A DNA stretch of 44,808 bases from a virus. Both the position numbers and the translations under genes were made by a program. The stretch lies in IMG/VR virus record IMGVR_UViG_3300036861_000386, positions 1 through 44,808 of that record. One strand, written 5' to 3'. How positions within the stretch are numbered: the stretch's first letter is position 1; every line of letters begins with the position of its first letter. Positions 2,794-44,610 of the stretch are shown here, in pieces. A model generated the notes under the pieces. That model was not told where the DNA came from, did not search any database, and worked only from the letters and a program-made list of their open reading frames with translations.

Positions 2794-3266
2794 TCGGCCG
2801 GACCTACCTCGAACGCAGCCGCCCCGTCGTGGTGCTCATCCGCTGGGGACCCGGCGGCGGCCCCCGCAACGTGCTCATCCGCCGCGAAGACGGCACCCAA
2901 GTGGTCCGACCGTTCCGTGGACTACGCCGAATCCAGGAGAACCCGATGACCTGCACCCCGCAATGCATCCACCCCGCACCGTCACAGGCGCACTGCGGGT
3001 CGGAATCGTGCCATCGCACGTTCGGCGGGGTGTCCGGCTTCGACGCGCACCGGCGCGGCGGCCGGTGCATCGATCCCGCCACGATCACCAAGGACGGCGG
3101 CATGCACCTCGACGCGAACGGAATCTGGCGATGGAACAGACGCAGTTCGTACCCACATGCCGATTCCGCCCGGAGCTGCGAGCCGCAGACGGCCGAACTC
3201 TCGGTGATGTCCTCGACGGGCGGTGCCCGGGATCGCGTACCGCAAGACCACCGGCCCGGTCGGTAA
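2790..3266 (+). CDS. FDXHR-type zinc protein fused behind a small actinophage domain
   Basis: The frame is open for 158 residues. Residues 1-50 form a compact beta-rich unit (PVVVLIRWGPGGGPRNVLIR, then VVRPFRGLRR). From Met53 (position 2946, preceded by AGGAGAACCCG) begins an FDXHR-type zinc-binding domain: Cys pairs, then FGGVSGFDAHRRGGRC, then a DANGIWRW ending. No stop separates the two, so the product is either one fusion or two overlapping starts. The last 40 residues (after about 3140) look like out-of-frame sequence and cover the 55-bp permuted repeat at 3199-3253, suggesting that the natural end of the gene was disturbed. Confidence 0.65.
   Translation: MIGRTYLERSRPVVVLIRWGPGGGPRNVLIRREDGTQVVRPFRGLRRIQENPMTCTPQCIHPAPSQAHCGSESCHRTFGGVSGFDAHRRGGRCIDPATITKDGGMHLDANGIWRWNRRSSYPHADSARSCEPQTAELSVMSSTGGARDRVPQDHRPGR
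3199..3253 (+). repeat. permuted inverted repeat, copy 1 (block order A-B)
   Basis: Block A (3199-3227, TCTCGGTGATG...GGTGCC) runs directly into block B (3225-3253, GCCCGGGATCG...ACCACCG), sharing GCC. Both 29-bp blocks recur exactly, but in B-A order, on the opposite strand at 44445-44502. Confidence 0.9.
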
Positions 3267-3333
3267 GGACCTCGCCGATACGCAGCAGCGGCTGAACGCG
3301 GTAGTCGCCGCCACACCGAAGGAGGCCCGATGA
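3223..3333 (+). CDS. possible small or truncated ORF coupled to the XRE gene
   Basis: A 36-residue frame from a GTG at 3223 (PGIAYRKTTGPVGKDLADTQ...) ends with a TGA that overlaps the ATG of the XRE gene at 3330, as expected for this operon. It opens only after a TGA at 3205 and begins inside the permuted repeat, so it may be the 3' remnant of a longer gene. A competing frame, 3131-3295 (MEQTQFVPTCRFRPEL...), has a reasonable N-terminus but then degenerates. Neither can be called with confidence. Confidence 0.3.
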   Translation: MPGIAYRKTTGPVGKDLADTQQRLNAVVAATPKEAR

Positions 3334-3731
3334 CTGCGCATCCGGTCCGTGACGAGTTAGCCCGGGTCGGCCTTGCCGTCGCCGCCGCGCGGAAGGCTGC
3401 GGGACTCACCCAACAGCAACTCGCGTCCGCGTCCCACATGAGCCGAACCAGCATCGCCAACATCGAGACCGGGCGGCAAGGCGTGCCATCGGCCGCACTC
3501 GTGGAAATCGCCGCAGCACTGGGTACAAGCACGTCGCTGCTGCTCGGCGAGAACTCGATCGCCGACTCGCGGATACCGACCGCGCTGGCGGTCGCCGTGA
3601 CCAGCCAACAGCGCGAGATCACCCGCCTGCTGCATCAGATGAGCGAGACCTTATGCGACCTGGCGACCGCGTCGGAGCGCCTGGAGAAGGTCATCGCCGC
3701 CTGGGAAACCCGACCGGAGGGAATCCGATGA
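3330..3731 (+). CDS. XRE-family transcriptional regulator
   Basis: A 133-residue protein. Residues 8-68 are a clear XRE/Cro-C1 helix-turn-helix: VGLAVAAARKAAGLTQQQLA, then SHMSRTSIANIETGRQGVPS, then a helix ending IAAALGTSTSLLL. Residues 80-133 form an amphipathic helix or coiled coil likely used for dimerisation. RBS GGAGG lies 6-7 bp before the ATG. It sits inside the rightward early operon with no divergent partner, so it is more likely an operon regulator than the lysogeny repressor. Confidence 0.88.
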   Translation: MTAHPVRDELARVGLAVAAARKAAGLTQQQLASASHMSRTSIANIETGRQGVPSAALVEIAAALGTSTSLLLGENSIADSRIPTALAVAVTSQQREITRLLHQMSETLCDLATASERLEKVIAAWETRPEGIR

Positions 3732-3913
3732 AGCCATGGTGGCCACACTGCGACGACCCGGTCCGCTGCTACATGCACCTCTCCGCCTGGCCCACCCGCT
3801 GGTGCGGCTGCCGCTGCATCCGGTGCCGGATCGCCCACGCCATCCGTTGGGATCTCAACTGCAGGAACCTGTGGCAACGACCGACCTCGCCACCTAAGAA
3901 GAACCGCCGATGA
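3728..3913 (+). CDS. small Cys-rich protein
   Basis: Sixty-one residues from the ATG that overlaps the XRE gene stop (ATGA). The sequence has PHCDDPVRCYMHLSAWPTRW followed by CGCRCIRCRIAH, five to six Cys with neighbouring His, pointing to one or two zinc sites. The short, basic tail ends PPKKNRR. A similar Cys/Trp arrangement is common among actinophage early proteins; the function is unknown. Confidence 0.75.
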   Translation: MKPWWPHCDDPVRCYMHLSAWPTRWCGCRCIRCRIAHAIRWDLNCRNLWQRPTSPPKKNRR

Positions 3914-42748: not shown

Positions 42749-43074
42749 ACCACCCCGCCGCGCTGCCCCGCCTCGGCGAGATCATCCGCCACAGCGAATA
42801 CCACGCCCTGCGACTGATTCACCTCCTCGGCCGCGACTACGACCCCGCCTCCGCCTCGGACATCGAGGCGTACCCGGGTGAGCCGCTGGTCGACGTGGAG
42901 CTGGCGAAGCTCCGCTCGGACGCCCGGGAGATGCTGCGCGGCCTCGCCGACCTCGCCGGGCTACGCCACCCGCCGGTCGGCAGCGCCGTGCCCGCGGGCT
43001 TCGAAGACCGCCCGGGTCCGGACGCCCGGGTGCAGACGCTGACGCCCAGGTCGGTGGGAGGCGACCATGACTGA
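42745..43074 (+). CDS. hypothetical helical early protein
   Basis: A 109-residue protein, ATGA-coupled. Two main helices (LGEIIRHSEYHALRLIHLLG and LAKLRSDAREMLRGLADLAG) and a Pro/Gly-rich tail. No Cys and no catalytic motif. The HNH-AP2 gene starts within its last eight bases. Confidence 0.72.
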   Translation: MNHPAALPRLGEIIRHSEYHALRLIHLLGRDYDPASASDIEAYPGEPLVDVELAKLRSDAREMLRGLADLAGLRHPPVGSAVPAGFEDRPGPDARVQTLTPRSVGGDHD

Positions 43075-43666
43075 GCTGAGACTGCCCAGCGGGCACATCG
43101 CCCTGGTGGACGACGACGACTTCCCAGCCGTCCTCGCCGCTGGCCCGTGGCGGCTCGACCGGAACGGTCGACGCCTATACGCAGTTCGCGACCTATCGCA
43201 AACCCGACACCAGAGGCTGCACCGATTCATCACGGGCGACCCGCCCCACGACATCGACCACGTCAACGGCGACGGTCTCGACAACCGGCGCGCCAACCTG
43301 CGGCCGTGCAATGACGCGCAGAACCAGGCCAACAGCATCCCCGTCCTTGCCAGGTCGGGCTACCGGGGCGTAGCGCGAACGCCGTCCGGTCGCTGGAGGG
43401 CAAGCATCAAACTGGCCAACCGCAACATTCACCTCGGCTTGTTCGCCACGGCCGAGGACGCCGCCCGAGCGTATGACGCCGCGGCGATCGAAGCGTGGGG
43501 CGAGTACGCCCGCCCCAACTTCCCCCAAGCCGCCCGGGTCCGGAACCCCGGGTCGAGGGGCCTGCCGCCGGGCCCTGCCGCCGGCCCGCCCCCGGCGCGC
43601 GAAAGCGACGGGACGGACCCCACGCCGTCCCCCGCAGGCGCAAACGTGACGGCATCACCGACGTAA
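43067..43666 (+). CDS. HNH-AP2 homing endonuclease
   Basis: A 199-residue protein. Residues 1-60 form the N-terminal beta part (HIALVDDDDFPAVLAAGPWR). The HNH core is RLHRFITGDPPHDIDHVNGD, then GLDNRRANLRPCNDAQNQAN. From about 100 the AP2 DNA-binding domain follows: GYRGVARTPSGRWRASIKLA, then NIHLGLFATAEDAARAYDAA. The last 35 residues are a Pro/Gly-rich tail. This is the fifth HNH-type gene in the window, probably a mobile element that inserted in the early operon. Confidence 0.9.
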   Translation: MTELRLPSGHIALVDDDDFPAVLAAGPWRLDRNGRRLYAVRDLSQTRHQRLHRFITGDPPHDIDHVNGDGLDNRRANLRPCNDAQNQANSIPVLARSGYRGVARTPSGRWRASIKLANRNIHLGLFATAEDAARAYDAAAIEAWGEYARPNFPQAARVRNPGSRGLPPGPAAGPPPARESDGTDPTPSPAGANVTASPT

Positions 43667-44256: not shown

Positions 44257-44610
44257 ATGAGCACCACGTACGCCGATGACTTCGACACCGGCGAGATCGA
44301 GATCCCACGCCACGGCGAGCACACCGCCAACCTGGCCCCGTTCACGATCCTGCCGCCCGCGTTCCGCCGACCCGACGCGACCGGGGAGTTCCCAGCCGTC
44401 ACGTGGCACGACACGGGTGTCGGCATCTTCAGCCCGATCTCGCCGGCACCGCCCGTCGAGGACATCACCGAGACGGTGGTCTTGCGGTACGCGATCCCGG
44501 GCCCCCGGCATTCGGCGCCCGGCCGGCCGGCCAAGCTGCGGCGGGGTCGCGGCCGTCACCGCCGGCCGTCGCTGCTGGCGCGCGCTTGGCTTTGGCTGGT
44601 TATGCCGTGA
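44257..44610 (+). CDS. hypothetical early protein carrying repeat copy 2
   Basis: A 117-residue protein; GGAAGG lies upstream of the ATG. The first 60 residues are acidic and low in secondary structure cues (DDFDTGEIEIPRHGEHTANL). Residues about 64-83 (PAPPVEDITETVVLRYAIPG) are encoded by the permuted repeat at 44445-44502. The C-terminus is strongly basic with a Trp-rich end (RRGRGRHRRPSLLARAWLWL). Coupled to the next gene by GTGA. Function unknown. Confidence 0.65.
   Translation: MSTTYADDFDTGEIEIPRHGEHTANLAPFTILPPAFRRPDATGEFPAVTWHDTGVGIFSPISPAPPVEDITETVVLRYAIPGPRHSAPGRPAKLRRGRGRHRRPSLLARAWLWLVMP
44445..44502 (-). repeat. permuted inverted repeat, copy 2 (block order B-A on minus strand)
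   Basis: Read on the minus strand, block B (44502-44474) is followed directly by block A (44473-44445). Each 29-bp block is identical to its counterpart at 3225-3253 and 3199-3227, but the order is swapped. Here the repeat lies inside an intact reading frame on the plus strand. Confidence 0.9.

Follow-up and report, generated by a model that had tools for sequence, protein, structure and literature searches.

A 55-nucleotide stretch in a small early gene of an uncultivated phage is most likely a one-off templated insertion copied from the phage's own genome

The short sequence that breaks a small early gene of the virus record analysed here is most likely a one-off templated insertion, and neither an element nor a new system. 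The 55 nt in question (positions 3199–3253, plus strand) consist of two overlapping blocks that recur without a single mismatch, in swapped order and on the opposite strand, inside an intact gene near 44.4 kb. Our preferred reading, which we consider fairly likely, is that templated insertion at a break produced the 3.2-kb copy recently, with its sequence captured from both sides of one point in the donor. The insert is without function of its own, and its effect is to shift the frame of the small gene in which it lies.

The window, i.e., the whole stretch of DNA that was analysed, is an entire IMG/VR record of 44,808 bases with 68% G+C, derived from an uncultivated virus. The phage is of the temperate, tailed type, and its genes include those for the large terminase, portal, capsid protein, tape measure, and a tyrosine integrase. 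The nearest named terminases, at 38–47% identity, belong to Pontimonas phage phiPsal1 and to Streptomyces phages such as phiC31 and TG1. Two related contigs were used for comparison, one of 49 kb (L004/L011) and one of 35 kb (L005/L012). In both of them, the counterpart of the last gene of the window (~44.8 kb) is followed by ~2–3 kb absent from the window and then by the counterpart of its first gene, and by this synteny the record is probably an incomplete genome of a circularly permuted or excised phage. Because the contig ends 1–3 and 44806–44808 lie near each other in the relatives, the donor and the recipient probably lie ~6–7 kb apart in inverted orientation, and not 41 kb. The initial annotation had located the two copies at opposite ends of the window, a placement that in part only reflects the point at which the contig is cut.

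Block A at the recipient site (3199–3227, plus strand) is identical in 29 of 29 positions to 44445–44473 on the minus strand, and block B (3225–3253, plus strand) is identical in 29 of 29 to 44474–44502 on the minus strand, just as the initial annotation had described them. The trinucleotide GCC at 3225–3227 is common to both blocks, so that at 3.2 kb the order is A-B with an overlap, while in the 58-nt donor (44445–44502, minus strand, within the gene at 44257–44610) the order is B-A and the blocks abut at the bond 44473^44474. Closing B-A through GCC gives a 55-mer, and rotating this 55-mer reproduces the A-B stretch exactly, without loss or duplication of a base, as had been proposed from the sequence alone. 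The placement of the insert is unambiguous and blunt, and no target-site duplication accompanies it.

Chance is excluded as the origin of the 29-nt blocks, since 20 first-order Markov shuffles had longest inverted matches of 15–22 nt, and only ~1e-7 inverted matches of at least 29 nt would be expected; the next-longest exact inverted match in the window itself is 19 nt. The record holds a single A-B copy together with its donor, and no other adjacent swapped pair was found in 835 kb made up of the window and the fetched loci, most of them short. Among 2.9 million viral contigs, neither exact block A nor the A-B junction had any match, and the right flank of the recipient found none in the viral contigs.

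The direction of copying can be read from the relatives. The donor gene (44257–44610, plus strand) is intact and encodes a protein of 117 aa with no family match. The two relatives have homologues of this gene at 89% and 79% protein identity, each containing the B-A stretch, and neither contig shows the A-B order. This conservation identifies the 44.4-kb copy as the donor and the 3.2-kb copy as the recipient, and B-A is the ancestral order. Each relative differs from the donor of the window at 4 of the 58 positions, and at these differing sites the 3.2-kb copy has the bases of the window's own donor, which indicates that it was copied within this lineage after the divergence. On this comparison, the 3.2-kb copy is self-derived, recent and unchanged since it was copied. 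The alignment to related phages suggested in the initial annotation thus bore out its choice of the copy in the intact frame as the donor, and its idea of a slice of a lost tandem repeat found no support, as neither the donor nor its relatives retain any trace of one. A shared conserved coding motif was rejected, because the strand of the copy relative to its gene is opposite at the two loci.

Close to the donor gene lies an HNH/AP2 endonuclease gene (43067–43666) flanked by an imperfect direct repeat (43008–43031 and 43530–43553, within the region 43005–43590). At this position, both relatives lack an HNH gene and have the repeat only once, i.e., an empty site, and the 49-kb relative possesses a related HNH gene (72% nucleotide identity) elsewhere, directly before its homologue of the donor gene. 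By this arrangement, the gene looks like a homing-endonuclease insertion with duplication of its flank.

The recipient gene (2946–3333, plus strand) encodes an N-terminal FDXHR zinc-binding domain (PF24071, E 2.6e-12), and the 55-nt insert shifts its frame so that translation meets a stop at 3266. When the 55 nt are removed, the frame of the zinc domain and the tail form a single frame of 110 codons, which, together with the absence of the A-B copy from both relatives, agrees with the earlier view of the 3.2-kb locus as the recipient. Two broken genes had been suspected here; what is observed agrees with a single gene into which a 55-nt frameshift was introduced. The stretch of 24 codons 3' of the insert has a strong codon bias in one frame only (mean log-odds of +0.52 in the joined frame versus −0.6 to −0.8 in the others), and the stop codon of this tail overlaps the ATG of the next gene at 3330. 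The homologue of the zinc-domain gene in the 49-kb relative shares 49% over 84 residues, and in the joined protein the match to this contig improves slightly, from E 3e-17 to 1.5e-19, and extends to residues 1–108. The restored frame gives modest backing to an exact empty site, as one in three insert lengths would restore it by chance.

No true empty site was present among the relatives found; the recipient module is variable and without a close relative, and the 35-kb contig lacks it. The joined protein read from 2946 had no relatives in the viral and genome contigs, and its 78 weak matches in the phage records were confined to the zinc domain. Joining from the frame at 3131 is incorrect; it gave 0 matches in the phage records and no relatives in the viral or genome contigs. 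Nucleotide searches with both flanks gave no match in named phages. DNA homology to the 49-kb relative is lost from about 3169 onwards and does not return before 3904, and a deletion at the insertion site may have occurred alongside the insert. A regulator module at 3254–3903 (an XRE-type gene at 3330–3731 together with 3728–3913) is absent from both relatives, in which homology is back at 3904–3907, so the left edge of an exchanged module may be where the 55-nt insert lies. For the neighbours of the regulator, only distant relatives were found, none of which matches the early region of the window by DNA.

The junctions suggest how the insert could have been formed. Both outer junctions (3198/3199 and 3253/3254) have 0 nt of microhomology and map to the two sides of one donor bond, from each of which 29 nt were taken, and the inner junction has a 3-nt microhomology, the GCC that the initial annotation had pointed out. 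From this pattern we infer a break, the enzymes acting on it and an order of steps. In the simplest account, the FDXHR gene would have been broken between the present positions 3198 and 3254 during replication or break repair, and each side of the break would then have gained 29 nt from one of the two sides of 44473^44474 in a gene of the same phage, in inverted orientation, either through a polymerase priming at the donor point or through joining to broken ends, had a second break arisen there. These tails would finally have been joined through their terminal microhomology GCC, and the outcome viewed from the donor would be a circularly permuted, inverted copy. The same sequence also results if the template is switched serially, with copying that begins at A, slips back by way of GCC and ends at its starting point.

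On the minus strand of the donor, the hairpin CACCG-TCT-CGGTG runs from 44478 down to 44466, and the B/A boundary coincides with the 5' edge of its loop. SbcCD cuts hairpins 5' of the loop (PMC6265447), and the donor point is where a hairpin nuclease of this type would cut. The hairpin is conserved in both relatives; it is weak (5 bp, −4.2 kcal/mol, with 14 of 200 shuffles equally good), and loop-edge positions of this kind amount to 0.2–0.8% of the window. The link between the hairpin and the donor point, noticed post hoc, is suggestive. It is highly improbable that the phage or its host makes tiny circles or two-ended captures centred on loop-nicked hairpins and inserts them as exact circular permutations; if true, hairpin-centred captures would be a break-repair signature new for phages and could drive the evolution of small genes.

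The competing reading that deserves most care is a technical chimera, in which a displaced strand switched template intramolecularly during whole-genome amplification or library preparation and the product became fixed in a stretch of the contig with thin coverage. We regard it as unlikely, though far from negligible. The source is an uncultivated virus record, the insert breaks a frame and has no mutation relative to its donor, and by synteny with both relatives the loci are inverted and ~6–7 kb apart, as is typical of chimeras from multiple displacement amplification (MDA), 85% of which are inverted, mostly with segments <10 kb apart (PMC1855051). Against it, a single junction accompanied by an intervening deletion is the usual form of these chimeras, and complementary bases are present at the junction in 93.5% of the inverted ones with segments <10 kb apart (PMC1855051), whereas here three junctions fall within 55 nt with no sequence apparently lost, and the complementarity of at least 2 bases seen in most, not all, chimeras is absent at both outer junctions. 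The long genes of the contig are also intact. An artefact of the de Bruijn graph alone was dismissed on logical grounds, because the k-mers over the flank/A, A/B and B/flank joints occur nowhere else and chimeric reads would be required.

A literal circle is very unlikely. In this scenario, joining through GCC turned the 58-nt donor into a circle of 55 nt, probably single-stranded, and this circle was opened opposite the joint before its insertion, which would account for the insert being an exact rotation with the opening exactly opposite the GCC joint. No enzyme known to us produces circles this small and inserts them, which counts against it, and the two-ended repair described above predicts the identical sequence; moreover, the signs of a mobile element or circular intermediate, i.e., copies elsewhere in the record or in the viral contigs searched and a target-site duplication, are both lacking. 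Scarcely probable at all is a maintained antisense or regulatory element, in which early-region transcripts would be complementary, over two stretches of 29 nt, to the mRNA of the 44.4-kb gene. The plus strand is the sense strand at both loci and the copies are on opposite strands, so the 3.2-kb RNA would indeed pair with the RNA of the donor gene, but such complementarity arises from any inverted self-copy, the A-B order is not conserved in the relatives, the insert disrupts a gene frame, and its fold is unremarkable (z −0.10 as DNA).

If the templated insertion is real, it offers a clean natural example of a complex event of this kind in a phage, in which the donor, direction and recency are all readable. 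Its signature of adjacent, swapped and inverted blocks sharing a few bases is searchable and could reveal how frequent repair scars are in phage mosaicism; if it is an artefact, it serves as a useful caution against chimeras in virus contigs from metagenomes.

Among known systems, the insert is closest to templated insertions at double-strand breaks and to microhomology-mediated template switching (PMC11724301, PMC8421209, PMC2621351), with which it shares a short, non-tandem, inverted copy of a distant locus that stays intact, its composition from two pieces of one locus, and microhomology at one joint at least, here the inner one only (GCC). In yeast, complex break insertions are likewise built from two pieces of one locus (PMC11724301). 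Such insertions are known mainly in eukaryotes, whereas ours is in a phage contig, its pieces abut at one donor point, and its outer joints are without microhomology. The chimeras produced by phi29 polymerase in MDA (PMC1855051) resemble it in that segments a few kb from each other are joined in inverted orientation, and differ from it in their usual single junction, deletion and complementary bases, in place of three junctions that are blunt on the outside. The quasipalindrome-associated template-switch mutations of Escherichia coli (PMC7202029) provide a bacterial example of a template switch linked to a hairpin, but they arise within nearby imperfect inverted repeats, whereas here a distant locus was copied to a new site.
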